A stretch of 64,000 nt of DNA from Frigoribacterium endophyticum. Lineage in GTDB: Bacteria; Actinomycetota; Actinomycetes; Actinomycetales; Microbacteriaceae. The stretch's first letter is position 1. Every line of letters begins with the position of its first letter. Of the stretch, positions 19,483 through 51,610 are shown one piece after another. The notes beneath the pieces are model-generated. The model made no database searches and was not told the origin of the DNA. It was given only the letters and a program-made list of their open reading frames with translations. Where the stretch lies: the NCBI RefSeq assembly GCF_011759585.1, contig NZ_JAAOYV010000001.1:1-64000 (forward strand), given 5' to 3'. Position numbers and translations under genes: made by a program.

Positions 19483-19777
19483 GGGGGTCTCCGGGGGCGT
19501 CTCGGTCGGTGCGGGCGGCGCGGGCTCCGACCATGTTCCTCCCTCCCGGGGCCGACGGGCGACGAGGAGGCGCGGTGCCGGCCCCGCAGGGAGGGCCCGA
19601 CCGCGGGTCGGCTCGTCACGACGGTGCGGCGGGTCCGCGTCCTCGGCGGCGGGCCGGCGCCGGCCCGCCGCCGAGGACGGCGACCCGCCGCACCTCGGGT
19701 GTCGGTCGGCGTCGATACAGTGACGACCGTCCGGCAGCACCGCCGGCGCCACGACCACCGCGAGCGAGAGGGGCCCC
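19483..19777. other. Divergent intergenic region carrying a 68-bp palindrome
   Basis: 295 bases between the M20 peptidase and sbcD starts. It holds repeat A1 (19625-19692), one copy of GGAGGCGCGG (19566-19575) and, near sbcD, GATACAGT, which may be the sbcD -10 region. No small gene is apparent. Confidence 0.55.
19625..19692. repeat. Dispersed palindrome family A, copy 1
   Basis: A 68-bp near-perfect palindrome (about 32 of 34 positions pair). The outer arms read TGCGGCGGGTC and GACCCGCCGCA; the centre is GCCGGCGCCGGC. Three further copies of the same length lie at 39557, 39742 and 51543. Confidence 0.85.
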
Positions 19778-20956
19778 GTGCGCATCCTGCACACGAGCGA
19801 CTGGCACCTGGGGCGGACCCTGCACGGCGTCGACCTCCTCGAGCACCAGGCCGCCTTCGTCGACCACCTGGTCGACCTCGTGGCCGAGCGCGCGGTCGAC
19901 GTGGTCGTGGTGGCGGGCGACGTGTACGACCGGGCCGTGCCCTCGGTGCCCAGCGTGCGCCTCCTCGGCTCGGCCCTGCGACGGCTGAGCGAGCTCGCCG
20001 TCGTCGTCGTGACGCCGGGCAACCACGACTCCGCCGCGCGGCTGGGCTTCGCCGCCGAGCTGATGCGGCCTGGCCTGCACGTGCTGGCCGCGGTCGACCG
20101 GCTCGACGAGCCGGTCGTCGTCGACGACGCGCACGGGCCCGTGGCCTTCTACGGGCTGCCCTACCTCGACCCCGACACCGTGCGGCACGCCCTCGCGCCC
20201 GACGGCGCCGACGAGCCCCTCGCGCGCTCGCACGAGGCCGTCGTCGGCGCCGCGCTCGACCGGGTCAGGGCCGACCTGGCGACGAGGCCCGGCACCCGCT
20301 CGGTCGTCGTCGCGCACGCCTTCGTCGCGGGCGGGGCGGTCGTCGAGCGGAGCGAGAGCGAGCGCGACATCCGCGTCGGCGGGGTCGACGTGGTGCCCTC
20401 GGCGGTCTTCGACGGCGTCGACTACGTCGCACTCGGTCACCTGCACGGCGCCCAGCGCGTGGGCGCCGCCGCCGGGTCGCATCCGGTGCTGCGCTACTCG
20501 GGCTCGCCCCTGGCGTTCTCGTTCGGCGAGGTCGGGCACGTGAAGTCGACCGCCGTCGTCGACCTCGCCGCCGACGGCACGGTCGAGGTCGAGCTCGTCG
20601 CCGCACCCGTGCCGCGTCGCCTGGCCGAGGTGACCGACACCCTCGAGCACCTGCTCGACGGCCGCCACGACGACCTCGTCGACGCCTGGCTGCGCGTCAG
20701 CGTCACCGACCCCGTGCACCCCGACCACCTGTGGGCGCGCGTCCGGGAGAGGTTCCCGCACGCGCTCGCCGTGCTGCACACGCCCGTCGGCGCCGTCGAC
20801 TCGCCCCGGCTGCGCGTGGTGACGGCCGAGACCGACCCCGTCGAGGTCGCGGCCGACTTCGTCGCGTTCGCCTCGGGGGCCCCGGCCAGCGACGCCGAGC
20901 TCGCCGTCGTGCGGGCGGCGTACGAGGCCGCGAGGGCGAGCGAGGGCAGCGAGTGA
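19778..20956 (+). CDS. sbcD: Exonuclease SbcD (Mre11-like nuclease subunit)
   Basis: 392 residues. Calcineurin-type metallophosphoesterase motifs run in order: ILHTSDWHLG (residues 3-12), VVVAGDVYD, TPGNHDS and the late GHLHG, followed by an SbcD C-terminal domain. With SbcC it forms the SbcCD complex, which cuts hairpins and processes DNA ends. It begins with GTG at 19778 behind GAGAGGGG. The stop overlaps the sbcC start (GTGA). A hairpin-cutting nuclease next to long palindromic repeats is notable but may be coincidence. Confidence 0.93.
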   Translation: MRILHTSDWHLGRTLHGVDLLEHQAAFVDHLVDLVAERAVDVVVVAGDVYDRAVPSVPSVRLLGSALRRLSELAVVVVTPGNHDSAARLGFAAELMRPGLHVLAAVDRLDEPVVVDDAHGPVAFYGLPYLDPDTVRHALAPDGADEPLARSHEAVVGAALDRVRADLATRPGTRSVVVAHAFVAGGAVVERSESERDIRVGGVDVVPSAVFDGVDYVALGHLHGAQRVGAAAGSHPVLRYSGSPLAFSFGEVGHVKSTAVVDLAADGTVEVELVAAPVPRRLAEVTDTLEHLLDGRHDDLVDAWLRVSVTDPVHPDHLWARVRERFPHALAVLHTPVGAVDSPRLRVVTAETDPVEVAADFVAFASGAPASDAELAVVRAAYEAARASEGSE

Positions 20957-23900
20957 TCCTGCACCGGCTGACCCTGCGCGCCCTCGGCCCCTACGCCGGC
21001 GAGCACTCGATCGACTTCGCCGCGCTCGGCGCCTCGGGCACCTTCCTGCTCGAGGGGCCGACCGGGGCCGGCAAGTCGACCGTCATCGACGCGATCGTCT
21101 TCGCCCTCTACGGGCAGCTCGCCGGCGAGGGCGCCAGCCGCGACCGCCTCCGCAGCCACCACGCCGCGGCGCACGTCGAGCCGTTCGCCGAGCTCGTGTT
21201 CGAGACGGCGGCGGGCGTGCACCGCATCCGCCGGAGCCCGGCGTGGCAGCGGCCGAAGAGCCGGGGCACCGGCACGACGCCCGCGAACGCGACGGCCACG
21301 CTCGTCCGCCTGACCTCGCCCGACGCCGTCGACGGCGAGGTGGTCTCGACCAGCACGCAGGAGGTCGGGCACGAGATCGGCCGGGTGCTCGGCCTGACCC
21401 GTCAGCAGTTCGTGCAGACGGTCGTGCTGCCCCAGGGCGAGTTCGCGGCGTTCCTCCGCTCGTCGGGGGAGGACCGCCGGCGCATGCTGCAGTCCCTCTT
21501 CGGCACCGAGATCTACGAGCTGACGACGGCCCGGCTGGCCGAGGGGCGGCGCACGGCCCACGCGGCCGTCGCCGAGGCCGACCGGGGCGTCGAGCTCGCG
21601 GTCGCCCGGCTGCGCGAGGCGGTCGGGGTCGACGACGACCCGGTCGTCGGAGCCGCGCTGGAGGCGGCGCTCGCCGGGCAGGCCGCCCCGGTCGTGGCGG
21701 GCGGCGGGAGCGACTCGGGCGCTCAGCCCGCCGAGGGTGGCGAGGGCGCGGCGGGCGCCGAGGGCCTCGTCGCCACCGTCGATGACGTCCTCGCCGGGCT
21801 CGTCAGCGAGTCCGACGCGGCCGCCGACCGGCGGGGCACGGCCCGGTTGGCGCACGACGACGCGCGGCGTCGCCTCGACGAGCAGCGCCGTCTGCGCGAG
21901 GCTCTCGACCTCCGCGCCGACCTGCAGGCCCGGAGCGCCCGCCTGACGGAGGCGGCGGTCGCGGTCGACGAGGCCCGGTCGCGCCTCGAGGCCGCGGGCC
22001 GGGCCGACACGGTGACCGGGGCGGCTCGGGGCCTCCGGGCGGCGCAGGGTGTGCTCGCCGAGTCGGGAGCGACGCTGGTCGACGCGCGGCAGGCGGCGAC
22101 GGAGGTCGACCCGGAGCTGGAGACCGTGCCCGGGCTGGTGCTCGTCACGGGGCCGTCGACGCCGACCGACGGCATCGACGGCATCGGCGGCACCGCCGGC
22201 CTCGACAGCTCTGGGGGCTCCCCCGATCTGCCGGAGGTGACCGCCGCCGTCGCGGCCCACCGCGACGACCTGCGCTCCGACCTCGCCGTGCTCGGCCGGG
22301 TCGCCGCCGTCGAGCGGGGGCTGCCCGGTCGTCGTGCCGAGCTGCTCGACGCGGGCCGAGCGCTCGAGCAGGTCGACGTCGACCTCTCGACGCTCGACGC
22401 CGAGCTCGTCGAGCTCCCCGTCGCGAGGGTCGCCCTGGTGGCCGCTCGTGAGGGCGCCCGGCAGTCGGCCGACGACGAGCCCGCCGCCGTTCGCCGGGTC
22501 GCCGACGCCCGGGCGGCGCTCGCCGCCGTGCTCGCGACGGACGCCCTGCGGGAGGAGGCGACACGGCTCGACGAGCTCCTCGCCGACCGGTCGACGGAGG
22601 CGCTGGCCGCGGTCGACCTCGAGGCCGGGCTCCGTCGTCGGCAGATCACCGGCACGGCCGGCCAGCTCGCGCTCTCGCTCGAGGCCGGAGAGCCGTGCCC
22701 GGTCTGCGGGTCCATCGAGCACCCGGCCCCGGCCACCCCGACCGACGACCACCCGACCGACGACGACGTCGAGGCCGCCGCCCTCTCCGCCCGCGCCGCG
22801 GGCCAGCGGCAGCGCGACGCGGCCGCCGCCGCGGCCGCCGCCCGTGCCCGTCTCGAGGTCGCCGTGGCGGGGCTCGGCGACCTCGACGAGGCCGGGGCCC
22901 GGGAGGCCGTCGCCGAGGCGGAGCAGGCGCTCGCCCGCGCCCGTGCCGCCGTGGCCTCCGCCCGGGCCGCGGAGCGGGCGCTCGACGACCACGACCGTGA
23001 GGCGGAGGCACTGCGCACCCGGGCCGAGACGACCCGCACGCTCCGAGCGACCCGTGCCGAGCGGCTCGAGGGCGATCGACGCCGGCTCGCCGACGACGAG
23101 GCGCTCGTCGCCGAGGCCGTCGCCGGAGCAGGAGCCGGAGCCGAGGGGCGTGCCGACGGGAACGCCGACGGCCACGCCGAGCGCCCGACCGGCACCGTCG
23201 CCGACCGCGTCGACCTCCTCACCCGTCGCGCCGACCTCGCGGATCGTCTCGTCTCCGCCCTCCGGGCGGCCGAGGTCGCCCGGGTCGCGCACGACCAGCG
23301 TCGCGTCGAGCTCGCCGAGGCGCTGGCCGCCTCGGGCTTCGCGACGGCCGACGCCGCCGCCGCGGCGGTCCTGCCCGGCCCGGAGCGCGACTCCCTCGGT
23401 CGTCGCGTCGCGGGGCACGACGCCGAGCTGGCCGTCGTCGGCGCGGGCCTGGCCGACCCGTCCATCGCCGCCCTCACCGGTGAGGAGGAGGTCGACGTCC
23501 CGGCCGCGGAGGGGGCTCTCGGCGTCGCCGAGGTGGACCTCGCTGCGGCCACCGACGCGGCCGGGCGGTCCGCCGACCGGGCCCGACGCGCGACCGAGGC
23601 GCTCGCCGCGCTCCGACGTGCCGAGGCCGCGGGCGAGTCCGTCGCCGAGGAGGCGCGGGCCGTCGTGCGGATGGCCGACCTCACGAGCGCCACCGGCACC
23701 GTCAACGTGCGCGGGGTGACGCTCGGCACGTACGTGCTCCTCCGTCGGTTCGACGACGTCGTCGCGGCCGCGAACGCCCGGCTGCGGGTGATGTCGAGCG
23801 GTCGCTACGTGCTCGAGGCCTCGGAGGAGCGCGAGCAGGGCTCCCGCTCCCGGCGCACGGGCCTCGCGCTCGCCATTCGCGACGCGTCGACCGACACGAC

Positions 23901-24213
23901 CCGCGACCCCGCGAGCTTCTCGGGCGGCGAGACCTTCTACGCCTCGCTGAGCCTCGCGCTCGGGCTCGCCGACGTCGTCCAGGCGGAGGCGGGCGGCCTC
24001 GAGCTCGGCACGCTCTTCGTCGACGAGGGGTTCGGCTCGCTCGACCCCGAGACTCTCGACGCCGTGATGACCGAGCTCGGCCGCCTCTCCGACTCCGGCC
24101 GGGTGATCGGCATCGTGAGCCACGTCGACGAGCTCAAGCAGCGCATCGCCGACCGCATCGAGGTGCGACGCCTGCCCGACGGCTCGTCGACGCTGCGCTC
24201 CACGGTCGGCTGA
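20953..24213 (+). CDS. sbcC: Exonuclease SbcC (Rad50-like ATPase subunit)
   Basis: 1086 residues. It has an SMC/Rad50 layout: N-terminal ATPase half with Walker A GPTGAGKST (Lys41), long charged coiled coils, a zinc-hook CPVC (582-585) in the centre, and the C-terminal half with the ABC signature FSGGETFYASLSLALGLADV and Walker B LFVDEGFGSLD. The GTG start at 20953 overlaps the sbcD stop by 4 bases. The length is normal for actinobacteria. The coiled-coil regions are extremely alanine-, glutamate- and arginine-rich, which also creates long shadow frames on the other strand. Confidence 0.94.
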   Translation: MILHRLTLRALGPYAGEHSIDFAALGASGTFLLEGPTGAGKSTVIDAIVFALYGQLAGEGASRDRLRSHHAAAHVEPFAELVFETAAGVHRIRRSPAWQRPKSRGTGTTPANATATLVRLTSPDAVDGEVVSTSTQEVGHEIGRVLGLTRQQFVQTVVLPQGEFAAFLRSSGEDRRRMLQSLFGTEIYELTTARLAEGRRTAHAAVAEADRGVELAVARLREAVGVDDDPVVGAALEAALAGQAAPVVAGGGSDSGAQPAEGGEGAAGAEGLVATVDDVLAGLVSESDAAADRRGTARLAHDDARRRLDEQRRLREALDLRADLQARSARLTEAAVAVDEARSRLEAAGRADTVTGAARGLRAAQGVLAESGATLVDARQAATEVDPELETVPGLVLVTGPSTPTDGIDGIGGTAGLDSSGGSPDLPEVTAAVAAHRDDLRSDLAVLGRVAAVERGLPGRRAELLDAGRALEQVDVDLSTLDAELVELPVARVALVAAREGARQSADDEPAAVRRVADARAALAAVLATDALREEATRLDELLADRSTEALAAVDLEAGLRRRQITGTAGQLALSLEAGEPCPVCGSIEHPAPATPTDDHPTDDDVEAAALSARAAGQRQRDAAAAAAAARARLEVAVAGLGDLDEAGAREAVAEAEQALARARAAVASARAAERALDDHDREAEALRTRAETTRTLRATRAERLEGDRRRLADDEALVAEAVAGAGAGAEGRADGNADGHAERPTGTVADRVDLLTRRADLADRLVSALRAAEVARVAHDQRRVELAEALAASGFATADAAAAAVLPGPERDSLGRRVAGHDAELAVVGAGLADPSIAALTGEEEVDVPAAEGALGVAEVDLAAATDAAGRSADRARRATEALAALRRAEAAGESVAEEARAVVRMADLTSATGTVNVRGVTLGTYVLLRRFDDVVAAANARLRVMSSGRYVLEASEEREQGSRSRRTGLALAIRDASTDTTRDPASFSGGETFYASLSLALGLADVVQAEAGGLELGTLFVDEGFGSLDPETLDAVMTELGRLSDSGRVIGIVSHVDELKQRIADRIEVRRLPDGSSTLRSTVG

Positions 24214-24269
24214 CCGCGCCACCCGCTCCGCGCCTCCCGCCTGTCTCCGCCCGCTGGCCGACCTCGCTC

Positions 24270-24333
24270 GGCGAGTGGTCGCGAACTGCTGCTCCCGCGC
24301 CGAGTGAGGAGCACATCGCGACCATTCGACGCC
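24270..24333. repeat. Dispersed palindrome family B, copy 1
   Basis: A 64-bp unit beginning GGCGAGTGGTCGCGA and ending TCGCGACCATTCGACGCC. The arms are imperfectly complementary. It stands directly before copy 2 with a 20-base spacer. Confidence 0.75.
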
Positions 24334-24353
24334 GTCAGCCAGCGACGGCGTTC

Positions 24354-24417
24354 GGCGAGTGGTCGCGAACTGCTGCTCCCGGCCGCCGCGGAGCGCAGTT
24401 CGTGACCACTCGGCGCC
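24354..24417. repeat. Dispersed palindrome family B, copy 2
   Basis: A 64-bp unit with arms CGAGTGGTC-G-CGAACTGC and GCAGTTCG-T-GACCACTCG, nearly perfect. It is the same length and has the same start as copy 1; related units lie at 53983 and 54079. Confidence 0.8.
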
Positions 24418-24439
24418 AGCCCACGCCGTCCCCCACGAG

Positions 24440-24495
24440 CGACGGGCCGCGACCCCGCCACGACCACGGGGGTCGGGAGGGGGCGCGGCCCGTCG
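24440..24495 (-). terminator. Terminator hairpin after the DUF6458 gene
   Basis: Perfect 12-bp arms CGACGGGCCGCG (24440-24451) and CGCGGCCCGTCG (24484-24495), with inner GACCCC/GGGGTC pairing. It lies just beyond the DUF6458 stop on the reverse strand. Confidence 0.65.
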
Positions 24496-24514
24496 AGGGG
24501 TCGTGCGGGGTCGA

Positions 24515-24775
24515 TCAGACGATCGGGCCGCCGTCGTCGCGCGTCGAGCGACGCGTGACCTGCTCGCCGCTGACCGGGTCGACCGCGCTGCGCGAGGTCG
24601 ACGTCACCTGACGACGACGCGTCGCGAAGACGAGCCCGAGGATCGTGACGATGATGCCCGCCGCGATGAGGATGTAGCCGATCAGCTGGATGTCGATGCC
24701 CGCGACCTGGAAGTCGAGAGCGAACGCGAGGATCGCGCCGATCACGATCAAGGCGATTCCGCCGCCGATGCTCAT
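24515..24775 (-). CDS. Small DUF6458 membrane protein
   Basis: 86 residues with two membrane helices (about 4-22 and 28-50) rich in Ile, Gly and Leu, then a basic RRR turn and a polar tail containing VDPVSGEQVTRR. This matches the DUF6458 family found in Microbacteriaceae and relatives; the function is unknown. The ATG at 24775 has AAGGAGAA in front. It is a single gene; its promoter lies in the long intergenic region upstream. Confidence 0.87.
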   Translation of the reverse strand: MSIGGGIALIVIGAILAFALDFQVAGIDIQLIGYILIAAGIIVTILGLVFATRRRQVTSTSRSAVDPVSGEQVTRRSTRDDGGPIV

Positions 24776-25229
24776 GGGTTCTCCTTCGTGAGCCGGAGCC
24801 TCTGCTCCGGGTGCCTGAAGGGTACTGACCCCGCGCCTCCTCCGTCACCATCTCGTCGAGGGCTCCTCACCCCCTCCGCGGCCTGTGGGCAGCCCTCGGG
24901 CGGGCCGGACGCTGACTGAGCGTCACCCGGGTGGACGGGGGACGACGGGCCGAGACAGGTCGGGCGGCGAGGTAACCTCGGGTCACTCCGGCGGATCCTC
25001 GGCCTCGAGACTCCTGTTGAGCGACGCCCGTCGCTCGTTTCCCGGTGGTGGAGCCGAGGTCGGGTCCGCCGGAGGCCTCGCCGCTCCCGACGCGGCGGCA
25101 GACCACCTGGTCGACCCTCGATCTGGGGGAGGCGCGGGGCACGCCGGTCCGATCACCTCGGCCGGCAGCGCCCCCGGTCGGCACGCGTCGGCCCCAGTCG
25201 CCCCGCCAGCCCCCCCTCTCAGACCTCGG
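24776..25229. other. 454-base intergenic region with a possible small RNA
   Basis: No open frame here looks protein-coding. A 13-bp palindrome, CGAGGT-A-ACCTCG (24969-24981), contains the promoter-like hexamer TAACCT, and 40 bases further on a 7-bp hairpin, GAGCGAC-gccc-GTCGCTC (25020-25037), is followed by GTTTCCC. That layout could make a short RNA on the + strand. One GGAGGCGCGG word lies at 25128-25137. The aroED message also ends here on the reverse strand. Confidence 0.35.
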
Positions 25230-26021
25230 TCAGGCCCCGTGCAGCAGGTCGAGCGCAGCACCGAGTGCCAGGGCGTCGAGCTGCCCCGGGGCACTCGTCG
25301 CCCCGACCGCGCCGAACGTCAGGCACGAGCCGACCGTCTCGCCGGCGAGACGCGAGAGGGCGCCGAGCGGCCCCATCGACATCGTCACCGCGGGCACCAG
25401 GCCGGGCCCCGACCGGAAGTCGTCGGTCGCCGCCAGGAGGGTCAGCACGTCGGCGGGCGACGTCGGCATCGCGGCGAGCTTGACCACGTCGGCGCCGTTC
25501 TCCTGCTGCTCGACGAGGCGCGAGACGATCTCGGCGCGGGGCGGCGTCGCCGTGAAGTCGTGCGACGACATGACGACGCGGAGCCCCGCGCCGTGCGCGG
25601 CGTCGACGAGGTGCTCGCGCACGTCGGGCTGCGTGTACATCTCGACGTCGACCGCGTCGGGGCGCTCGGCGCCGTCGAGGGCGACGACAGCGTCGAGCAG
25701 CGCACCGTAGGCGTCGGGCGTGATGTCGCGCTCGCCGCCCTCCTGCTTCGTGCGGAAGGTCGCGAGCAGCGGGACGTCGTCTCGCAGCGACCGCCGCACC
25801 GCGGCCACGGCCTCCCGCACGCGGTCGTGGTCGGCGACGGCGGTGAGGTAGTCGAGGCGGAGCTCGACGACGTCGACCACTCCGCGGGGCAGGGCCGCGA
25901 GCTCGACGGCGGTGGCCTCCAGCGCGGCGGCGGTGCGCCCGACCAGCGGCACGCAGACGGCGGGGCGACCGTCGCCCAGGGTCACCGAGCGCAGGGTGAC
26001 GGGCTGCGGGGTGGGCCGCAC
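25230..26021 (-). CDS. aroD: Type I 3-dehydroquinate dehydratase
   Basis: 263 residues, third step of the shikimate pathway. Catalytic residues of the type I class are visible: Glu53 and Arg55 in VVELRLDY, His154 in SSHDF and the Schiff-base Lys181 in DVVKLAAMP. Most actinobacteria use the unrelated type II enzyme, so a type I enzyme paired with aroE is worth noting. The GTG start at 26021 lies one base after the aroE stop, so the two are co-transcribed and probably coupled. Confidence 0.92.
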   Translation of the reverse strand: MRPTPQPVTLRSVTLGDGRPAVCVPLVGRTAAALEATAVELAALPRGVVDVVELRLDYLTAVADHDRVREAVAAVRRSLRDDVPLLATFRTKQEGGERDITPDAYGALLDAVVALDGAERPDAVDVEMYTQPDVREHLVDAAHGAGLRVVMSSHDFTATPPRAEIVSRLVEQQENGADVVKLAAMPTSPADVLTLLAATDDFRSGPGLVPAVTMSMGPLGALSRLAGETVGSCLTFGAVGATSAPGQLDALALGAALDLLHGA

Positions 26022-26022
26022 G

Positions 26023-26886: not shown

Positions 26887-27022
26887 ACGGGCTCCTCGGG
26901 GTCGGCGGGGCAGACGGCCCATCCTACGACCGGGCCTCCGGGCGGGCCTCGACCCGCGACTCCTGCCGGCCCCGCCGCCGGGCCGGGCCGCCGGGCCGGT
27001 CACGGTCTGGCAGGCTCGACCG

Positions 27023-27466: not shown

Positions 27467-27474
27467 GCGGGCGG

Positions 27475-38358: not shown

Positions 38359-39537
38359 GTGGCCGATGCCGACCTGCCGCCGACGCACCAGCGCGTCGCG
38401 GCGCTCCTCCGCCACGAGTTCTCCGGTCTCGAGCTCACCGACGTCGCGAGCGAGTACCCGGGCACCCGTGCGCCGGGTGCCGCCCTCCGCCTGCGCCTCG
38501 GCCACCGTCTCTGGCTCGACCTCGCCGACGACGGCCGGGAGTGGTTCGTCGCCGGCCTCTACGCCGACCAGTCGGGCGTCACCCCGCCCGACCAGCGGTC
38601 GCGCGAGTCGCTCGCCGTGCCCCTGGACGCGGAGGCGCGGGTCGTCGCCGACGCAGCCGTCGCGTCGGTCTGGCGCTGGGTCGACGCCGTGGGCCCGGCC
38701 GAGGCCGACGCTCCGTTCGCCCGGGAGCGCCCCGCCGCGCCTCCCGCGATCCCCAGCCCCGCCGTCTTCGGGGCGCCGGCGCCCGCTCCGTACGTCCCCC
38801 AGCCGACGCAGGCGCTGACGCCCTCGCCCGGGGCGTGGGCCGGGCAGGGTGCGGGCCAGCCCGTGCCGAACGCGTACGTGCCGCAGGCCGCCCCCGGGGC
38901 GTCGCCCTACGGCGCGCCCGGCGGCTACGGCGCCGCGCCCGCCTACGGCGCCGCGCCCGCCTACGGCGCCGCGCCCGCCTACGGCGCCTGGGCGCCCGCC
39001 GCCCCCGCGAAGCCGCGGAACCGCGGCCTGCTCATCGGCGGCATCATCGCCGCCTCCGTGCTCGTGCTCGGGGGCGTCTCCGCCGCGGTCCTCAGCGGCA
39101 TCGACACCTTGTCGAGCGAGGTCGCGGCCGGGTCGGACCCGGGCATCGACCCCGACGCCGTGCCCGACACCGGCATCGAGGAGCTCACGGTCGGCGACTG
39201 CTTCTCGTTCGGCGGCGCCGACGCGACGGCGGAGGAGGTCTCGATGGTCGACCTCCGCTCGTGCGACGAGGAGCACCAGAACGAGGTCTACCTGCAGGAC
39301 GAGCTCACTGACGCGGACGCGTACCCCGGCGACGAGGAGACCGCGGCCGAGGCGGACGACCTCTGCTACGGCGCCTTCGAGGGGTTCATCGGGCTGCCGT
39401 GGGAGGAGTCGGAGGTCGAGTACCTCTACCTGACGCCGACCGAGCAGAGCTGGGGCCAGGGCGACCGGAGCGTGCTCTGCTACGCGTACCTCTACGGCGA
39501 CACGTCGCCCGGCAGCCTGCAGGACTACGGGTACTGA
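38359..39537 (+). CDS. Septum-formation family membrane protein with Tyr-Gly-Ala repeats
   Basis: 392 residues. An N-terminal globular region (about 1-110) is followed by a Pro/Ala/Gln/Tyr linker with YGAAPA repeats, one membrane helix (about 222-245) and an extracytoplasmic domain resembling the actinobacterial septum-formation domain: TVGDCFSF, LRSCDEEHQNEVY, DLCYGAFEGFIG and VLCYAYLYGD, with four cysteines likely in two disulfides. The GTG at 38359 has AAGGGGACC upstream, and TTACGAT near 38305 may be its promoter. A role at the division septum is assigned by family only. Confidence 0.82.
   Translation: MADADLPPTHQRVAALLRHEFSGLELTDVASEYPGTRAPGAALRLRLGHRLWLDLADDGREWFVAGLYADQSGVTPPDQRSRESLAVPLDAEARVVADAAVASVWRWVDAVGPAEADAPFARERPAAPPAIPSPAVFGAPAPAPYVPQPTQALTPSPGAWAGQGAGQPVPNAYVPQAAPGASPYGAPGGYGAAPAYGAAPAYGAAPAYGAWAPAAPAKPRNRGLLIGGIIAASVLVLGGVSAAVLSGIDTLSSEVAAGSDPGIDPDAVPDTGIEELTVGDCFSFGGADATAEEVSMVDLRSCDEEHQNEVYLQDELTDADAYPGDEETAAEADDLCYGAFEGFIGLPWEESEVEYLYLTPTEQSWGQGDRSVLCYAYLYGDTSPGSLQDYGY
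38926..38988 (+). repeat. 18-bp in-frame tandem repeat inside the septum-protein gene
   Basis: TACGGCGCCGCGCCCGCC is repeated three and a half times without a mismatch (units at 38926, 38944, 38962, half unit at 38980), encoding YGAAPA units in the linker. Copy number is likely to vary between strains. Confidence 0.9.
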
Positions 39538-39556
39538 ACCGCCGCTGGTCGGGCAG

Positions 39557-39624
39557 TGCGGCGGGTCGCCGTCCCCGCGGGCGGGTCGGCGCCAGCCCGC
39601 CGGGGAGGACGGCGACCCGCCGCC
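39557..39624. repeat. Dispersed palindrome family A, copy 2
   Basis: 68 bp, starting 19 bases after the septum-protein stop. The outer 17 bp of the arms are perfectly complementary (GCGGCGGGTCGCCGTCC and its complement); the centre is GTCGGCGCCAGC. Confidence 0.85.
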
Positions 39625-39661
39625 TCCGCTGAGCGGTGGCCGGGGCGCCGGGGGAGGCCGT

Positions 39662-39677
39662 TCCACTCCGGAGTGGA
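39662..39677. repeat. Short palindrome family C, copy 1
   Basis: TCCACTCCGGAGTGGA, a perfect 16-bp palindrome followed by GGAGCGATCCTGG. A second copy with a similar flank is at 48072. Confidence 0.7.
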
Positions 39678-39741
39678 GGAGCGATCCTGGAGCAACGCCC
39701 TGCTGGCCGCCGAGCGGGTCGTGCGCCCGTGCGCCCGCGCG

Positions 39742-39809
39742 TACGGCGGGTCCGTGTCCCCGCTGGCGGGTCGGCGCCGGCCCGCCCAGGAGGACGGGGA
39801 CCCGCCGCG
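39742..39809. repeat. Dispersed palindrome family A, copy 3
   Basis: 68 bp with the same organisation as copies 1, 2 and 4: outer CGGCGGGTCC and GGACCCGCCG-type arms and centre GTCGGCGCCGGC. It lies 117 bases after copy 2. Confidence 0.85.
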
Positions 39810-39923
39810 CTCCTCGCGGACCGGGCTCGCGCCTCCCGTCCTCGCCCGCCCACCCGCCGCGGCGCGCCCCGTAGGATCGGAGCGCCCCCGCGACCCGCCG
39901 GGAGCGTGACCCGAGAGGACGTC

Positions 39924-40547
39924 GTGCAGCTCGTCGACCGTCTGTTCCGCACCGACGAGTGGCGGACCGTGCCCAACGCGATCACGGCCGTGCGACTCCT
40001 GCTGCTGCCCGTCTTCGTCGTGCTCGTCGTCGGCGCGCACTACTGGTCGTCGCTGCTGGTGATCGCCGTGGTGTTCTTCACCGACTTCCTCGACGGGTTC
40101 GTCGCGCGGCGCACCGGCGCGACGTCCGAGCTCGGTCGCTGGCTCGACCCCGTGGCCGACCGGCTGACGGTGATCGTCGTGATGGTCTCGCTCGCGCTGG
40201 GCGACCTGCTCAACTGGCCCGTCGTCGTGCTGATCCTGCTGCCCGACGTGCTGCTCAGCCTCTACGCGCTGGTGCGCTTCGGCGGCGCGCCCTTCCCGGT
40301 CACGCGGGTCGGCAAGGTGCGCACCGCCCTGATCTTCGTCGGGCTGCTGATGCTGCTCGTCGGCCACGCGGCCGTCGACCAGTGGCGAGGAGTCGCGGGC
40401 TCGGAGGGCCTGGACGTCGCGGGCCAGGTGATGATCCTGATCAGTGCGTTCGTGCTGTTGCTCGGGCTGATCGGGCACTACGTCGCGGCGGTGATCTACG
40501 GGCGAGCCCTCGTCGCTCGGCACCGCGAGGACCGCCGGGCCGGCTGA
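39924..40547 (+). CDS. CDP-alcohol phosphatidyltransferase family protein
   Basis: 207 residues with about six membrane helices. The family motif D-x2-DG-x2-AR-x8-G-x3-D-x3-D is complete: Asp54, Asp57-Gly58, Ala61-Arg62, Gly71, Asp75 and Asp79. Such enzymes join CDP-diacylglycerol to an alcohol (glycerol-3-phosphate, inositol phosphate or another lipid) at the membrane. I chose GTG 39924 because GAGAGG lies five bases upstream; GTG 39906 is possible. It resembles PgsA-like cardiolipin or phosphatidylglycerophosphate synthases. The next gene follows after 9 bases. Confidence 0.88.
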   Translation: MQLVDRLFRTDEWRTVPNAITAVRLLLLPVFVVLVVGAHYWSSLLVIAVVFFTDFLDGFVARRTGATSELGRWLDPVADRLTVIVVMVSLALGDLLNWPVVVLILLPDVLLSLYALVRFGGAPFPVTRVGKVRTALIFVGLLMLLVGHAAVDQWRGVAGSEGLDVAGQVMILISAFVLLLGLIGHYVAAVIYGRALVARHREDRRAG

Positions 40548-45353: not shown

Positions 45354-46276
45354 GCCGCATCGCCGAGAGCCTCTTCTGGATCGGTCGGTACATCGAACGC
45401 TCCGACGGCACCGCGCGCATCCTCGACGTGCACCTGCAGCTGCTGCTCGAGGACCCGTGGATCGAGGAGGACGCCGCCTGCCGCAGCCTCCTCGCGGTGA
45501 TGGGCAGCGAGGCCCCCGCCGACGTGTCGCTGACCCGCGCCGACGTGCTCGCGATGCTCGCCGTCGACCGGCACAACCCCGCCTCGATCGCCTACTCGCT
45601 CGGCGCCGCCCGCGAGAACGCGCGACGGGCCCGCGAGATCGTCTCGACCGAGCTGTGGGAGTCGCTGAACACCACGAGGGCGCGCATGCCCCGCAAGGTG
45701 GCCGGCGACAAGGTGCACGAGTTCTTCGGCTGGGTGCGCGAGCGCAGCGCCCTCGCCGTCGGCATCATCGAGAGCGCCACGAGCCGCGACGAGGTCTGGC
45801 ACTTCTTCACCCTGGGCCGGTCGATCGAGCGGGCCGACATGACCGCCCGCCTGCTCGCGACGCGCACGCTGACCGAGGCGTCCGGCCCGTCGTGGACGAC
45901 CATCCTCCGCTCCTGCGGCGCCTACGAGGCCTACCTGCGCACCTACCGGGGCGTGCCGAGCGCCCGCAACGCGGCGGAGTTCCTCCTGCTCGACCGCCTC
46001 TTCCCGCGCAGCGTCCTGTTCGCGGTGAGCCGCGCCGAGATGTGCCTCCGCGAGGTGGAGCCGACGAACCACCGGGTGGCGGCCTCCGACAGCGGGGTGC
46101 GCATCCTCGGCCAGATGCGCAGCGAGCTCGAGTACCGGCCCATCGGCGAGATCCTCGACGACCTGCCCGGCCACATGGACAGCGTGCAGGCGGCGACGAG
46201 CGCGGCCTCCGAGGCGATCCGCCAGCGGTACTTCCCGACCAGCGCGGCACCGACCTGGGTCGGCGGCCGCGCGTGA
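45347..46276 (+). CDS. Alpha-E domain protein
   Basis: 309 residues, almost entirely helical. It begins MLSRIAESLFWIGRYIERSD, in part the diagnostic opening of the alpha-E family, and contains HFFTLGRSIERADMTARLL and RSELEYRPIGEIL. The ATG at 45347 overlaps the ATP-grasp stop by 7 bases, with GAGAGGGAATC upstream. The biochemical role is not established; constant linkage to the permuted ATP-grasp and transglutaminase genes suggests one complex or pathway. It overlaps the next gene by 4 bases. Confidence 0.92.
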   Translation: MLSRIAESLFWIGRYIERSDGTARILDVHLQLLLEDPWIEEDAACRSLLAVMGSEAPADVSLTRADVLAMLAVDRHNPASIAYSLGAARENARRAREIVSTELWESLNTTRARMPRKVAGDKVHEFFGWVRERSALAVGIIESATSRDEVWHFFTLGRSIERADMTARLLATRTLTEASGPSWTTILRSCGAYEAYLRTYRGVPSARNAAEFLLLDRLFPRSVLFAVSRAEMCLREVEPTNHRVAASDSGVRILGQMRSELEYRPIGEILDDLPGHMDSVQAATSAASEAIRQRYFPTSAAPTWVGGRA

Positions 46277-47115
46277 GCCGCCTGCGCATCCGGCACCTGA
46301 CCGGGTTCTCGTACGCCGGGGAGGCGGTGGCCAGCTACAACGAGGCCCGCATGCTGCCGGCGCACACCGAGGGGCAGTACGTGCTCTCGTCGCACCTGCG
46401 CATCGAGCCCGTCGCGGCCTCGCACGAGTACGTCGACTACTGGGGCACCCGCGTCTCGTCGTTCGAGGTGCTGCTGCCGCACCGGCAGCTGTCGCTGACC
46501 GCGACGTCGCTCGTCGAGGTCAGGCCCGTCGCGCACCCCGACACGAGCATGGGGTGGGACGACCTCGCGCGGGTCGCGGGCGCCACCGCCCCGTTCGTCG
46601 AGCACCTCGAGCAGACGCCGCTGACGACGCCGCCCGACGACCTCGTCGCGCTCGCGGCCGAGGCGCGGGGCTCGGCGGCGCCGTGCGAGGCGGCCCTCGC
46701 GATCTGCCGGGCCGTGGGAGGCGCGGTGTCTTACCTGCCCGGCGTCACCAACGTGAAGACCACCGCCGCCGAGAGCTGGGCCGCCCGGGCCGGCGTCTGC
46801 CAGGACATCGCCCACGTGACGATCGGGGCCCTCCGCTCGGCGGGCATCCCGGCCCGCTACGTGAGCGGGTACCTGCACCCGAAGCCCTCGGCCGAGCTGC
46901 GCGAGACGATCGTGGGCGAGTCGCACGCGTGGGTCGAGTACTTCTGCGGCACCTGGCACGGCTACGACCCGACGAACCTCATCGACATCGGCGAGCGGCA
47001 CGTGGTCGTCGGCCAGGGCCGCGACTACCGCGACGTGCCGCCGCTGCGCGGCGTCTACGCGGGGTCGGGGGCGTCGTCGCTCTTCGTCACGGTGGAGATC
47101 ACGCGCGAGGCGTGA
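46273..47115 (+). CDS. Transglutaminase-like cysteine peptidase of the ATP-grasp operon
   Basis: 280 residues. An N-terminal beta domain typical of bacterial transglutaminase-like proteins (about 1-90) precedes the catalytic core with Cys176 (AGVCQDIAH), His218 (ESHAWVEYF) and Asp232 (GYDPTN), a complete triad. The GTG start at 46273 overlaps the alpha-E stop. Family knowledge suggests a peptidase or amidase that acts on the product of the ATP-grasp ligase. It has no signal peptide, so it acts in the cytosol. It ends the operon, 15 bases before the converging lipoprotein gene. Confidence 0.92.
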   Translation: MSRLRIRHLTGFSYAGEAVASYNEARMLPAHTEGQYVLSSHLRIEPVAASHEYVDYWGTRVSSFEVLLPHRQLSLTATSLVEVRPVAHPDTSMGWDDLARVAGATAPFVEHLEQTPLTTPPDDLVALAAEARGSAAPCEAALAICRAVGGAVSYLPGVTNVKTTAAESWAARAGVCQDIAHVTIGALRSAGIPARYVSGYLHPKPSAELRETIVGESHAWVEYFCGTWHGYDPTNLIDIGERHVVVGQGRDYRDVPPLRGVYAGSGASSLFVTVEITREA

Positions 47116-47130
47116 GCGGACGGGCGCCCG

Positions 47131-47955
47131 TCAGCAGCGCTCGAACACGTAGCCGGGGTCGTCGGGCCCCACGAGGTCGCGGTCGCGGAGGACGGTGCTC
47201 GCCGGCGTCGTCGCCCGGCCGCAGGTGCCGGCGAACGTGTCGCGGAGCTCGTCGGAGTACTCGACCGCGAGCACCCGGTCGCCGTACACCTCGGTGAACG
47301 CGGGGCACTCGTCGTAGGCGTCGCACTCCTCGACGACCGCGAAGTCGAAGCCGACCTCGTCCCGGCCCCGCGACTCCAGCTCGGCCGTGTTCTTCTGCGC
47401 GGCGGCCAGCCCGACGGCGTGCGCCCGGTCGACGAGCAGCGTCGCGTACGCGACGGCGTCGTCGAGGCCGAAGGCGCCCTCCGAGCGGCTGTACGAGTCG
47501 AGGTTGTCGAACTCGACGGCGTCGTAGCCGTCGTCGGCGCAGCCCTCGATCGTGGCCGTCATGCGCGCCGCGACCGTGGCCCTCGTCTCGGGGCGGGCGA
47601 GGTCGAAGAGGTGCTCGTCGGGCCACCCGGGGTCGACGAGCAGCTCGCCGGAGGCGCGGTGCACGAGGAGCTCGTCAGGCCAGTCCACGCCCGGCTGCGT
47701 CTGGAACCCGTTCACGTAGCAGACCCCGTAGGCGCCGGCGGCAGGCTCGGCCGTGCTGTCGCGCACGACGACGTCGGTGCCGGCCGGTGGGTCGTAGGCG
47801 GCACCGAGCTGGTAGTCGAAGGTCGCTCCGGGAGGAGGCGCCTGCGGTGCGCTCGCCGCGCACCCGGCGACGGCCGTGGCGACGACGGCGGAGGCGAGCA
47901 GCAGCAGCGCGGCGCGGACCGCGCGGTGACGGCGGGGGCGCGGCGAGGTGGGCAC
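47131..47955 (-). CDS. Secreted lipoprotein, endo-alpha-1,4-polygalactosaminidase-like (GH114)
   Basis: 274 residues. An Arg-rich start and lipobox Val-Ala-Gly-Cys32 mark a lipoprotein. The remainder fits the GH114 TIM barrel: VCYVNGFQTQPG near the first strand, GYDAVEFDNLDSY with the acidic pair expected at the active site, and AAQKNTAEL. Known members cleave galactosamine-rich exopolysaccharide. The GTG start at 47955 has TAGGCT exactly six bases upstream on the reverse strand, so it is leaderless. Likely substrates are surface or environmental polysaccharides. Confidence 0.85.
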   Translation of the reverse strand: MPTSPRPRRHRAVRAALLLLASAVVATAVAGCAASAPQAPPPGATFDYQLGAAYDPPAGTDVVVRDSTAEPAAGAYGVCYVNGFQTQPGVDWPDELLVHRASGELLVDPGWPDEHLFDLARPETRATVAARMTATIEGCADDGYDAVEFDNLDSYSRSEGAFGLDDAVAYATLLVDRAHAVGLAAAQKNTAELESRGRDEVGFDFAVVEECDAYDECPAFTEVYGDRVLAVEYSDELRDTFAGTCGRATTPASTVLRDRDLVGPDDPGYVFERC

Positions 47956-48035
47956 CCCGGGAGCCTAGACGCCCGGGTCAGGCGTCGGGGAGGCGGGCGA
48001 GCGGCGGCGGGACGGGTGAGCCGACGCGCGACGGG
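47956..48035. promoter_or_regulatory. Promoter of the GH114-like gene
   Basis: TAGGCT on the reverse strand (47962-47967) is six bases before the GTG. No other feature is visible in this short gap. Confidence 0.6.
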
Positions 48036-48617
48036 TCAGTCGTGCTGCGGGGTCGCCGGCGCAGGCGGCTGATCCACTCCGGAGTGGATGAGCGTTCCTG
48101 GCGGGTCGCCCGCCGGGGCGGCTGCCGGTGCGGCGCCCCCGGTCGTCGCCCCGACCGCCGAGACGACCCGCGGCGGCGTCACCGTCGTCGGGCGTCGGCC
48201 GAACGTCGACCCGTCCGGGCTGTCGGCGAGCACGCGGTCCGCGAGGGCGACGAGCAACACGACGAGCCCGCCGACCACGACGGCCGCCGCGAGCAGCGCC
48301 AGGGCCACCCCGACGTAGTCGCCGCCGGCCAGCGGGGTGACGACGGAGGTGCCCGCGGCGCCCGTGCCGTCGACCGCACCGGGCGTCGCGGCCGCGCCGG
48401 CACCGGCCGTCGCCGCGGCCGACGGCACCGCGGCGACCGGCGTCGCGGCGGCCCCGGCGCCCGTCGTCGTGAGCGGCGTGAGCGCGGTGGCGACACCGCC
48501 GGCCTCGGCTCCGGAGCCGGCCGTGCGGTCGAGGCGAGCGAGCACGACGAGGCCCAACGCGCCTCCCACGGTCGTGGTGGCGATCGCCACGACGCCGCTG
48601 ACCGTCGCTCTGCCCAT
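48036..48617 (-). CDS. Hypothetical Ala/Thr-rich membrane protein
   Basis: 193 residues. One N-terminal membrane helix (about 5-27), an Ala/Thr/Gly/Val-rich spacer with repeated GAGAAATPV-type units, a second helix (about 105-127) and a cytosolic Pro/Ala-rich tail. The last 20 codons contain palindrome C2, so the repeat has been taken into the reading frame (GTLIHSGVDQ). I do not recognise a family. The ATG at 48617 has GGAGGGCC upstream. Composition and lack of conserved blocks make the function opaque. Confidence 0.65.
   Translation of the reverse strand: MGRATVSGVVAIATTTVGGALGLVVLARLDRTAGSGAEAGGVATALTPLTTTGAGAAATPVAAVPSAAATAGAGAAATPGAVDGTGAAGTSVVTPLAGGDYVGVALALLAAAVVVGGLVVLLVALADRVLADSPDGSTFGRRPTTVTPPRVVSAVGATTGGAAPAAAPAGDPPGTLIHSGVDQPPAPATPQHD
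48072..48089. repeat. Short palindrome family C, copy 2
   Basis: ATCCACTCCGGAGTGGAT, a perfect 18-bp palindrome inside the 3' end of the membrane-protein gene. The flank GAGCG-T-TCCTGG matches the flank of copy 1 (GAGCG-A-TCCTGG). Confidence 0.75.
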
Positions 48618-48723
48618 GGCCGGCCCTCCGCCGCCGAGTCGCTCGGCTCGTCGATCGACGACCCGGTTGCTCGTGCCGGGGAGCGTACGCCCCGCGGCGA
48701 CCGCGCGGCGGCCCGGCCGGTCG

Positions 48724-50061
48724 CTACGTCGTCTGGCGGACAGCGGCCTCGTCGGCCGCCATCGCCTCGGCGGTCTCCTCCCGCTGTGCGCGGAGGCCGT
48801 CGCCGTCGTGCTCGACCCGGAAGCGCGGGTGGAGCACCGACCCGCCCCGGCGCAGCCGCAGGTGCTGGCGGCGGATCAGCCACGCCAGCGCGAGGCCGCC
48901 TGCGACGTAGCCGGCGCTCGCGCCGACGCCGATGGCCCAGCGCGGGCCGAGGGTGTCGGCGACCCAGCCGACGATCGGGGCGCCGAGCGGGGTGCCGCCC
49001 GTGAAGATCGCCATGTAGAGCGCCATCACGCGACCGCGCATCTCGGGGGCCGCCGACAGCTGCACCGAGCCGTTGGCCGTCGTCATGAGCGTGATGGACG
49101 AGAGCCCCACGGTGACGAGCACGGCGGCGAAGCTCCAGTACGTCGGCATCAGCGCCGCGACCGTGCAGGTCACGCCGAAGGCGAAGGCCGCGAGCACCAG
49201 CACGCGCATCCGCGGCCGCTCGCGCCGCGCCGAGAGCAGGGCGCCCGCCAGCGAGCCGACCGCGATGCACGACGACAGCAGGCCGAAGCCGCTGGCGTCG
49301 ACCCCGAACTCGACGCTCGCCATCGTCGAGGTGAAGATCGGGAAGTTGAGGCCGAAGGTGCCGATCACGAAGATGACGGCGAAGATCACCAGGAGGTCGG
49401 GGCGGCCGCGCACGTAGCGGAACCCCTCCCTGATCTGCCCCTTCGCCCGCGACACCCGGGGCTTCGCCTCGAGCTGCGACACCCGGATGAAGCGCAGCGA
49501 CACCAGCACCGCCGCGAACGACGCCGCGTTGATCAGGAACACCCAGCCCGTGCCGACCCCCGCGATCAGCACGCCGGCGACCGCGGGGCCGAGGAGGCGC
49601 GCGGCGTTGAACGAGGCCGAGTTCAGCGAGACGGCGTTGGTCAGGTGCCCCGGCGGGACGAGCTCGGAGACGAAGCTCTGGCGGATGGGCGCGTCGATCG
49701 CGTTCGCCGTGCCGAGCAGCAGCGCGAAGACCCAGACCATCCAGAGCTGGGCGACGTCGGTCAGCACCAGCAGCCCGAGCGCGAGCCCGAGCAGCCCCAT
49801 CGTCGCCTGCGTCAGCATCAGCATGCGCCGCCGGTCGAAGCGATCGGCGATCAGCCCGGTCACGGGCACGAGGAGGATCGGCGGCGCGAACTGCAGCGCC
49901 ATCGTGATGCCGACGGCCGTCGCGTCGTGGTCGGTGAGGTGCGTGAGCACGAGCCAGTCCTGCGCGGTCGACTGCATCCAGGTGCCGGTGTTCGAGACGA
50001 GCGCCCCGGCCGACCAGAGCCGGTAGTTGTAGAGGCGCAACGAGCGGAACATGGCGCTCAC
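48724..50061 (-). CDS. Major facilitator superfamily exporter (MFS_3/DHA3 type)
   Basis: 445 residues with 12 membrane helices. The start MFRSLRLYNYRLWSAGALVSNTG, in part, and loop motif ADRFDRRRMLM (motif A-like) place it in the enterobactin-exporter/DHA3-like group, which extrudes drugs or siderophores. The GTG start at 50061 overlaps the marR stop (GTGA), so it is coupled to and co-transcribed with that regulator. The hydrophilic C-terminal tail is about 45 residues. The substrate is unknown; induction by it through MarR is the usual arrangement. Confidence 0.9.
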   Translation of the reverse strand: MSAMFRSLRLYNYRLWSAGALVSNTGTWMQSTAQDWLVLTHLTDHDATAVGITMALQFAPPILLVPVTGLIADRFDRRRMLMLTQATMGLLGLALGLLVLTDVAQLWMVWVFALLLGTANAIDAPIRQSFVSELVPPGHLTNAVSLNSASFNAARLLGPAVAGVLIAGVGTGWVFLINAASFAAVLVSLRFIRVSQLEAKPRVSRAKGQIREGFRYVRGRPDLLVIFAVIFVIGTFGLNFPIFTSTMASVEFGVDASGFGLLSSCIAVGSLAGALLSARRERPRMRVLVLAAFAFGVTCTVAALMPTYWSFAAVLVTVGLSSITLMTTANGSVQLSAAPEMRGRVMALYMAIFTGGTPLGAPIVGWVADTLGPRWAIGVGASAGYVAGGLALAWLIRRQHLRLRRGGSVLHPRFRVEHDGDGLRAQREETAEAMAADEAAVRQTT

Positions 50062-50537
50062 GAGAGGGTCAGCTTCCGCAGGATCTCGGTCGCGTCGGCC
50101 AGCGTGCGGCGCTCGTCGGGGGTGAGGGCGGCGAGCCGGGGCGCGAGCCAGGCGTCGCGGCGGCGGCGCGTCTCGACCACGAACGCGGACCCCGCCGGCG
50201 TCGTCTCGAGCACGACGCGGCGACGGTCGGCCTCGTCGACCCGGCGCGCCAGCAGACCGGCCTCGACGAGCTTGCCGACGGTGCGGTTCATCGACGGCGG
50301 CGTGACGCCCTCGTGCTCGGTGAGGGCACCGATGGTCAGCGGCTGCGACTGGTAGACCCAGCCGAGCGCCGCCATCTGCGCGTCGCTGACGTCGGCCTCG
50401 GCCTTCTGCTGGCGGAGGCGCCGCGCCAGCCTCAGCACCGACCCGCGCACCGTCGTGGCCAGCTGGGCGTGCGGCAGCGCACGGAGCGGGGCAGCGGCGG
50501 AGGGGGGAGCGGGGGAGGCGGGAGTCACGTCGGTCAT
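50058..50537 (-). CDS. MarR-family regulator of the downstream exporter
   Basis: 159 residues. The winged helix is clear: LTIGALTEHEGVTPPSMNRTVGKLVEAGLL (in part) and the wing DEADRRRVVLETTPAG. The ATG at 50537 has GGAGG close upstream and CATACT further up as a -10 box. The gene overlaps the MFS gene by 4 bases. A perfect dyad at 50557-50569, just upstream, is the probable autoregulatory site. The divergent SDR gene may be under the same control. Confidence 0.9.
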   Translation of the reverse strand: MTDVTPASPAPPSAAAPLRALPHAQLATTVRGSVLRLARRLRQQKAEADVSDAQMAALGWVYQSQPLTIGALTEHEGVTPPSMNRTVGKLVEAGLLARRVDEADRRRVVLETTPAGSAFVVETRRRRDAWLAPRLAALTPDERRTLADATEILRKLTLS

Positions 50538-50556
50538 CGCCCTCCAGTATGAGCAG

Positions 50557-50569
50557 TTAGCTCGGCTAA
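50557..50569. promoter_or_regulatory. Probable MarR operator
   Basis: TTAGC-TCG-GCTAA, a perfect 5-3-5 dyad in an AT-rich patch between the divergent marR-MFS operon and the SDR gene; it lies 20 bases before the marR start. Confidence 0.75.
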
Positions 50570-50600
50570 GTAAACATCTCGGGCAGATCGACGACACCTG

Positions 50601-50629
50601 TTGAGGATCGGTCGATGCAGGCGTATCGT
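50601..50629 (+). promoter_or_regulatory. Likely sigma-70-type promoter of the SDR gene
   Basis: TTGAGG (50601-50606) and TATCGT (50624-50629) are separated by 17 bases, about 90 bases before the SDR start. Confidence 0.55.
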
Positions 50630-50721
50630 CGTGGACGGCTCGACGACGAGCCCCCACGACAGGGCCCCGAGGGGCGCCAGGACGCCGGCGCGAGAACGCC
50701 GCAGAAGGAAGAAGGACCACC

Positions 50722-51474
50722 ATGGCCAGGTTCACCGACAAGACCGCGATCGTCACCGGCGGAGGCAGCGGCATCGGCGCCGAGATCTCGCGGGCGCTCG
50801 CCGCCGAGGGCGCCTCCGTCGTCGTCACCGACATCAAGCTGGACGCCGCGCAGTCGGTCGTCGATGAGATCATCGCCGCGGGCGGCGCCGCGACCGCCTT
50901 CGAGCAGAACACCGCCGTCGCCGAGCAGTCCGACGCCGCCGTCGAGTTCGCGAAGACGACCTACGGCGCCCTGCACCTCGCCGTGAACAACGCCGGCATC
51001 GCGGGCGCCCCGGCCGACATCGGCGAGTACGACGTCGCCACGTGGGACCGCGTGCGCAGCGTCGACCTCGACGGCGTCTTCTACGGCCTCCGCTACCAGC
51101 TGCCCGCCATCGTCGAGGCCGGCGGCGGAGCGGTCGTCAACATGAGCTCGGTGCTCGGCACCGTCGGCCTGGCCCAGAACGCGGCCTACGTCACGAGCAA
51201 GCACGCCCTGGTCGGCCTGACCAAGGTCGCGGCGCTCGAGTACACCGCCCGCGGCGTCCGCACGAACGCGGTCGGCCCCGGCTTCATCGACACGCCCCTC
51301 GTGCGCGCGTCGCTCTCGGGCGAGGCGCTCACCGCGCTCGAGCAGCAGCACGCCGCCGGCCGTCTCGGCACCGACGCCGAGGTCGCCGCGCTGGTGCTGT
51401 TCCTCCTCAGCCCGGAGGCGTCGTTCATCTCGGGCAGCTACCACCTCGTCGACGGCGGCTACTCGGCGCACTGA
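50722..51474 (+). CDS. SDR-family oxidoreductase
   Basis: 250 residues, a classical SDR: TGGGSGIGAEIS cofactor loop, NNAG in VNNAGIAGAP, catalytic Ser in NMSSVLG, Tyr-Lys in YVTSKHALVG, and the C-terminal SGSYHLVDGGYSA. The ATG at 50722 has AAGGAAGAAGGAC upstream. It is divergent from the marR-MFS operon, sharing a region with the TTAGC dyad, and may be co-regulated. Directly after its stop comes CCGCGCCTCC and then palindrome A4. Substrate unknown. Confidence 0.9.
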   Translation: MARFTDKTAIVTGGGSGIGAEISRALAAEGASVVVTDIKLDAAQSVVDEIIAAGGAATAFEQNTAVAEQSDAAVEFAKTTYGALHLAVNNAGIAGAPADIGEYDVATWDRVRSVDLDGVFYGLRYQLPAIVEAGGGAVVNMSSVLGTVGLAQNAAYVTSKHALVGLTKVAALEYTARGVRTNAVGPGFIDTPLVRASLSGEALTALEQQHAAGRLGTDAEVAALVLFLLSPEASFISGSYHLVDGGYSAH

Positions 51475-51542
51475 CCCGCGCCTCCCCGGGGGGCTCGGGC
51501 TCGCTGCGCGGTGCAGTGCGGTGCGGCGGGCTCGCTGCGCGG

Positions 51543-51610
51543 TGCGGCGGGTCCGTGTCCTCGTGGGCGGGTGGGCGCCGGCCCGCCCAGGAGGACGGCG
51601 ACCCGCCGCA
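51543..51610. repeat. Dispersed palindrome family A, copy 4
   Basis: 68 bp with arms TGCGGCGGGTCC and GACCCGCCGCA and centre GTGGGCGCCGGC. It lies between the SDR gene and the two-component system. Confidence 0.85.

Follow-up and report, generated by a model that had tools for sequence, protein, structure and literature searches.

A REPIN-like family of 72-bp intergenic palindromes with phased motifs in Frigoribacterium

Four palindromes in one stretch of the Frigoribacterium endophyticum genome (64,000 nt of contig NZ_JAAOYV010000001.1, hereafter the window; the whole genome, 3.32 Mb, is referred to as G000) led us to examine a family of short intergenic repeats that occurs throughout the genus. 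An original prediction made from the letters of the window had described the four as repetitive extragenic palindromic (REP), bacterial interspersed mosaic element (BIME) or nonautonomous mobile palindromes, and given their copy number, the near-identical copies found in unrelated flanks and the turnover of their positions this is still the best reading. We found a REPIN-like palindrome family that lacks a REP tag and a RAYT transposase and is built from phased motifs, and its copies behave as a lineage-amplified, non-autonomous mobile repeat. We consider it fairly probable that they form a family of non-autonomous mobile DNA working like REPINs, in which the spreading unit is the whole 72-bp inverted dimer.

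Structure of the 72-bp unit

The four copies are located at 19623–19694 (c1), 39555–39626 (c2), 39740–39811 (c3) and 51541–51612 (c4), with no strand assigned to any of them, and they align without gaps. Their positions and common layout were as predicted and they are indeed of equal length, but the conserved unit is 72 bp and not 68 bp, extending 2 bp further at each end. It consists of four 12-bp motifs and three 8-bp spacers (4 × 12 + 3 × 8 = 72). Each motif ends in GGCGGGT and the motifs follow a 20-bp period, with motifs 1 and 2 forward and motifs 3 and 4 inverted, which in c1 places the forward motifs at 19623–19634 and 19643–19654 and the inverted ones at 19663–19674 and 19683–19694. 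The description as near-perfect palindromes suits c1, where 34 of 36 arm positions are complementary, but columns 1–5, 14–16 and 23–25 are often unpaired. A four-core pattern allowing up to 3 mismatches found exactly c1–c4 in the window and nothing in 100 dinucleotide shuffles, and no part of the window reaches the gathering score of any Rfam family. Folded as single-stranded DNA, c1, c2, c3 and c4 have energies of −50.5, −38.9, −30.4 and −35.4 kcal/mol, with z-scores of −9.4, −6.4, −3.2 and −6.0, respectively.

Types A, B and C are distinguished by the 5′ part of the motif. Type A, found in the window's genome, CFBP 13712 and others, has an outer motif that is mostly GGTGCGGCGGGT, and in type B all four motifs are TCGAGGGCGGGT-like. 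Type B is carried by most copies of AS3.2 and ACAM 257, by the three copies of PhB160 and by part of those in PhB116 and G007, so that A and B can coexist in one genome. Motifs of Frondihabitans sp. Leaf304 are GAGTGGGCGGGT-like with the centre GCTGCAGC, or GCTCCAGC/GCTGGAGC. Among the 26 copies of G000, core columns are conserved at 0.96–1.0 with the exception of column 32 (0.60), and of the positions between cores, columns 17–19 (GTC) are conserved at 0.98–1.0 and columns 14–16 at 0.50–0.62. Arms are sometimes longer, by increments of roughly 20 or 40 bp, and one arm of locus L086 reaches five motifs. Outward of 232 arm ends, extra cores in the same orientation were found at 20–22 bp (13) and 40–43 bp (18), and those in the opposite orientation showed no 20- or 40-bp peak. 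Most copies are nevertheless of the basic size, with 90 of 118 having no further core within 40 bp and 47 of the 52 strand-wise model matches in G000 measuring exactly 72 nt.

Copy number and distribution

A covariance model built from 21 G000 copies gave those 52 strand-wise matches, equal to 26 copies in the genome, and it matched all 16 genomes of the genus with 2 to 118 strand-wise matches, or about 1 to 59 copies; scoring covered 150 candidates per genome, and the high counts may therefore be low. This search of the genome and its relatives bears out the proposal of a genome-wide family present in sister genomes, on the strength of both copy number and occurrence in the relatives. The four-core pattern alone had 77 matches in G007, and by the model G010 has a single copy. 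A scan of named genomes with it returned at least 105 stretches, and the 80 listed were all from Frigoribacterium or Frondihabitans. Among 150 genomes of the taxonomic family, three of which belong to the window's genus, the pattern matched 4 genomes from 2 of 85 genera, and the reversed pattern had no match in any family genome listed. One genome from this set, G019, is taken to be Frondihabitans sp. Leaf304 since the same sequences are present in both; a second genome of its genus (g5) has no four-core match. No exact pattern match was found in viral contigs, nor any blastn match in plasmids and phages when a single type-A copy was used as the query. Our literature search found no paper combining Frigoribacterium with palindromic intergenic repeats.

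Single arms do not appear to be dispersed in G000. By hand count, the arm pattern has 60 matches there, 49 of them in the 26 palindromes, 7 adjoining one and 4 isolated, and the isolated arms are not above chance (4, compared to 6 for the reversed pattern). As a result, no larger element with such arms at its ends is visible in G000.

Dispersal and turnover of copies

For comparisons between copies we used 118 palindromes, 92 from the pattern scan and 26 from G000. For 89 of the 118, compared to 18.8 expected, the closest relative is another copy of the same genome, and 34 same-genome pairs differ at no more than 4 of 72 positions. In 30 of these 34 near-identical pairs both 30-bp flanks are only 20–57% identical, and the remaining 4 have one flank alike, as in local duplications. 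We also observed local tandem duplications of about 154–164 bp that contain a copy in CFBP 13712 (L110 6719/6873; L093 182/346).

Orthologous positions differ in whether a copy is present. No copy is found upstream of sbcD, next to which c1 lies, in the 322–420 bp inspected for G004, G007, G011 and G001, and the gap orthologous to that of c2 and c3 has no copies in six relatives (G007, G011, G012, G001, G002 and G006). The c4 orthologous gap, read by eye, holds one copy each of types A and B in G007 and G011 and type B only in G001, with no family copy in the other 12 genomes. In the gap between a short-chain dehydrogenase (SDR) gene and a LigD gene (names assigned by eye, gap read in 15 of 16 genomes) there is a type A copy in six genomes (G003, G005, G008, G009, G010 and G015) and a type B copy in two (G001 and G007), while seven have no complete copy. 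As judged by eye, the copies of G005, G008, G009, G010 and G015 in this gap have altered cores or indels. The cleanest empty site in this gap is that of G002, which when compared to G009 has no duplication longer than 2 bp. Likewise, no target-site duplication was found at the natural boundaries of the 90 copies without extra cores, whose flank consensus is limited to a weak G before and a weak C after; the family lacks this mark of a MITE derived from a DDE transposon.

In the target-duplication scan, the top-scoring offsets were internal to the element, whose own sequence accounts for them. The L050 gap of G009 could be taken as a 1.2-kb insertion with an 8-bp duplication. It contains a gene that weakly resembles AbiEi (23.8 bits against a cut-off of 25), however, and related DNA occupies the corresponding position in G003, G011 and G007; since deletion over the 8-bp direct repeat explains the gap equally well, it was rejected as evidence of transposition. 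For the L093 copy at 1015, the alignment to G002 was too poor to place a junction.

Arm pairing

The original prediction had proposed that pairing is largely kept as the sequence drifts and that the fold is under selection. This was not borne out, as within a genome a copy's two arms pair with each other no better than with arms from other copies, some weak signals aside. In the 21 G000 copies, with the full palindrome as the structure, 84.6% of cells pair compared to 83.9 ± 0.7% after shuffling, and covariation is at the shuffle level. When each region and genome was taken separately, own-arm pairing was not above pairing with other copies' arms, except at the inner motif in G000 (p = 0.03) and Leaf304 (0 of 300 shuffles). 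Spacer pairing signals were also seen in the two sets that pool genomes, where they can come from between-genome differences. Apart from these weak inner-motif and pooled-set signals, the test for compensatory changes was negative within genomes; judged by the conditions set in the original prediction, the family idea fails on this point and holds on copy number and sister genomes.

Arm identity gives the same picture. For type A it is 0.797 with the arm's own partner, 0.812 with other copies of the same genome and 0.737 with other genomes, and for type B the values are 0.836, 0.854 and 0.808, respectively. Arms are thus alike per genome and not per copy, since identity to the own partner is no higher than to other arms of the same genome, and this fits copying from a common source followed by drift rather than selection on each fold. 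In two of five groups (CFBP 13712 and AS3.2) own-partner arms are even less alike than in nearly all random re-pairings. The two arms in AS3.2 seem to differ at fixed columns, and the low likeness there may only reflect a directional element. The symmetry of per-genome consensus sequences, with 29–35 of 36 pairs symmetrical and a change on both sides at 218 of the 400 positions that differ, was set aside because it arises in part artefactually from the mixing of copies whose orientation is unknown.

Search for a mobilizing enzyme

The usual explanation for REP-like palindromes is a RAYT transposase. We searched for Y1_Tnp (PF01797), the domain of RAYTs and of IS200/IS605 elements, and found it in none of the 16 genus genomes and not in G019. 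It was present in 1 of 150 family genomes, which is of another genus and is not G019, and 5 of 14 control genomes were positive. The earlier remark that the window holds no REP-associated transposase is therefore borne out and extends to the genus. The genes adjoining copies in low-copy genomes, as judged by eye, are LigD-, SDR-, epimerase- and alcohol dehydrogenase-like, and no recombinase was noticed among them. The ends of the element also carry no general REP tag, with GTAG at 2 of 236 ends and CGTC at 23 of 236.

Position relative to genes

Gene calls from a simple codon-usage script written for this analysis place 112 of the 118 copies in gaps between genes and 4 at the edges of loci, with the other 2 overlapping called genes. 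All four window copies are intergenic by these calls and c2 and c3 share one gap, in agreement with the original prediction. The 112 classified copies fall into 50 convergent, 46 tandem and 16 divergent gaps (c1 being divergent), compared to 50 convergent, 171 tandem and 79 divergent among 300 background gaps of at least 60 bp, which were taken from the window and related stretches of other genomes and are not independent. Convergent gaps are over-represented (Fisher p = 1.5e-8) and divergent gaps under-represented (p = 0.012). A similar bias in gap orientation is reported for REPs (PMC3733652). The bias towards gene ends would most simply reflect tolerance of sites that do not break promoters, rather than a function.

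Proposed explanation and alternatives

If the palindromes do spread like REPINs, a trans-acting protein would recognize the motif array, either as duplex DNA or as a single-stranded hairpin, and would copy or insert it. Only copies with intact cores would spread, which would leave the cores conserved while spacer positions drift, and inserted copies would be expected to decay afterwards. It is possible, though we put this forward tentatively, that this is a new class of mobile palindrome. Its spread would be driven by a protein without a Y1 domain, present in Frigoribacterium and in Frondihabitans, that recognizes the 12-bp motif at its 20-bp phasing, and the successive motif versions (types A, B and C) would mark shifts in recognition specificity. 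Several points weigh against a mobile family. No transposition event was seen, and no mobilizing enzyme was seen in an enzyme-family search that covered Y1_Tnp alone. The 92 pattern-scan copies were chosen by exact cores, making their core conservation a matter of construction, and the G000 set came from a model of copies with one exact arm. Some copies, such as those in the SDR-LigD gap, are common to several species by descent. Presence and absence can also result from loss, as G013 has an imprecise deletion in that gap, and most genomes are too diverged for exact junctions, leaving G002 as the only clean empty site. Finally, a function at gene ends would likewise be in keeping with the proportion of convergent gaps (50 of 112).

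A bidirectional transcription terminator or 3′ RNA-stability element is an alternative that we find rather improbable. The convergent excess, the shortage of divergent gaps (16 of 112 against 79 of 300) and the stable fold are what a terminator would lead one to expect, but a T run (at least 5 T in 8 nt) follows none of the 236 ends, pairing is not kept copy by copy, and 16 copies including c1 stand between divergent genes. In the SDR-LigD gap, moreover, a separate hairpin follows the SDR stop by eye, even in G000 and G002, where this gap lacks a copy. A passive minisatellite, in which 20-bp repeats grow by slippage and template switching with no recognition involved, seems about as improbable; the extension of arrays in steps of about 20 bp and the tandem duplications in L110 and L093 agree with it, but near-identical 72-mers in unrelated flanks need dispersal, and the predominance of single 72-bp units (90 of 118 copies, and 47 of 52 G000 matches) is not what such growth would leave.

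An array of host binding sites is unlikely in our view, though less so than a terminator. Here a host or plasmid protein, such as a nucleoid protein or an FtsK/TraB-like translocase, would putatively bind the phased motifs and the palindrome would be a by-product. In types B and C the four motifs resemble one another and recur every 20 bp, directly as well as inverted, which is more than pairing alone can account for, and the further cores lying about 20 and 40 bp outward in the same orientation point the same way. TraB itself reads 8-bp TRS repeats, and clt-like sequences are found on Streptomyces chromosomes (PMC4170104). Such an array does not readily explain a copy number that ranges from about 1 to about 59 among species of one genus, positions that turn over between genomes, or a motif whose 5′ part changes from type to type even where A and B share a genome, and the type-A query matched no plasmid or phage.

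Neighbouring genes and other repeats in the window

Copy c1 lies between a peptidase M20 family gene (18319–19482, minus strand) and an SbcD-like phosphoesterase gene with Metallophos and SbcD_C domains (19778–20956, plus strand), so that a near-perfect palindrome stands 83 bp upstream of the SbcD-like gene start. Known SbcD relatives act on DNA hairpins, but the adjacency is probably a coincidence because the upstream stretches of the four relatives have no copy. Copy c2 begins 17 bp past the stop of a Septum_form domain gene (38359–39537, plus strand), and c3, in the same gap, is followed by a CDP-alcohol phosphatidyltransferase gene (39906–40547, plus strand). Copy c4 begins 66 bp past the stop of an SDR gene (50722–51474, plus strand) and is followed by a response regulator gene (51763–52434 from the called start, with a longer open reading frame from 51724; plus strand). 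A degenerate additional half-arm with 3 mismatches to the arm pattern adjoins c4 at 51623–51650 on the minus strand. Around 51690–51710, all 16 gaps inspected by eye contain two TTCAG half-sites about 11 bp apart, which look like a putative regulator binding site before the response regulator gene.

Other repeats were also noticed. A second family of palindromes, made up of CGAGTGGTCNCGANCTGC and its inverse, occurs at 8 window sites where 0.24 would be expected (24269–24331, 24342–24426, 53982–54044 and 54076–54138), and one of its sites adjoins a 72-bp copy on contig C3 (L029). The 10-mer GGAGGCGCGG has 32 window sites on both strands (e.g., 19566, 23649, 38212 and 54996) against 3 in a reversed-sequence control, and by eye it forms small hairpins after stop codons in several genomes. 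The perfect palindrome CCACTCCGGAGTGG occurs at 39663–39676, between c2 and c3, and at 48074–48087, as well as in the flanks of the L034 copy. In G003, G009 and G010 the gap orthologous to that of c4 (window 51475–51762) holds, by eye, a different palindrome that forms a hairpin with GTCACGAC, which gives the impression that more than one palindrome family uses sites of this kind.

Significance and comparison with known systems

The family shows signs of recent spread in a genus where no Y1 domain was found, with copy number differing more than 10-fold between species, which makes it a tractable system for finding another route by which short palindromes multiply. It also separates a hairpin under selection from a phased motif array read by a protein, a distinction that can be drawn because individual copies do not maintain the pairing of their arms.

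The REPINs of Pseudomonas fluorescens (PMC3116915) resemble the Frigoribacterium family in that the dispersed unit is an extragenic inverted dimer and single arms are not dispersed alone, which for Frigoribacterium was tested in G000 only; the common GI spacing there is 71 bp, close to the 72 bp found here. Unlike the REPIN/RAYT system, the Frigoribacterium family is without a Y1 domain in all 16 genus genomes, and each of its arms is made of two 12-bp motifs repeated every 20 bp, with as many as five in L086. It shares with the GTAG and CGTC REPs (PMC3733652) a palindromic, extragenic nature and a preference for convergent or unidirectional gaps, and with some CGTC families the lack of a dedicated transposase, but it has no general tag, is longer and has phased internal repeats. 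The same paper describes untagged REP-like families in other taxa, including M. tuberculosis. Transposase-less (CGTC) and untagged REP-like families are thus already known. The Porphyromonas gingivalis miniature inverted-repeat transposable element with an internal minisatellite (PMC4596501) similarly joins an inverted-repeat element to minisatellite-type repeats, and the Frigoribacterium family shows no target duplication. Lastly, the Streptomyces clt and clt-like TraB sites (PMC4170104) are also arrays of a short motif that occur on the chromosome, but the Frigoribacterium family differs from them in its signs of dispersal and its 72-bp inverted layout.

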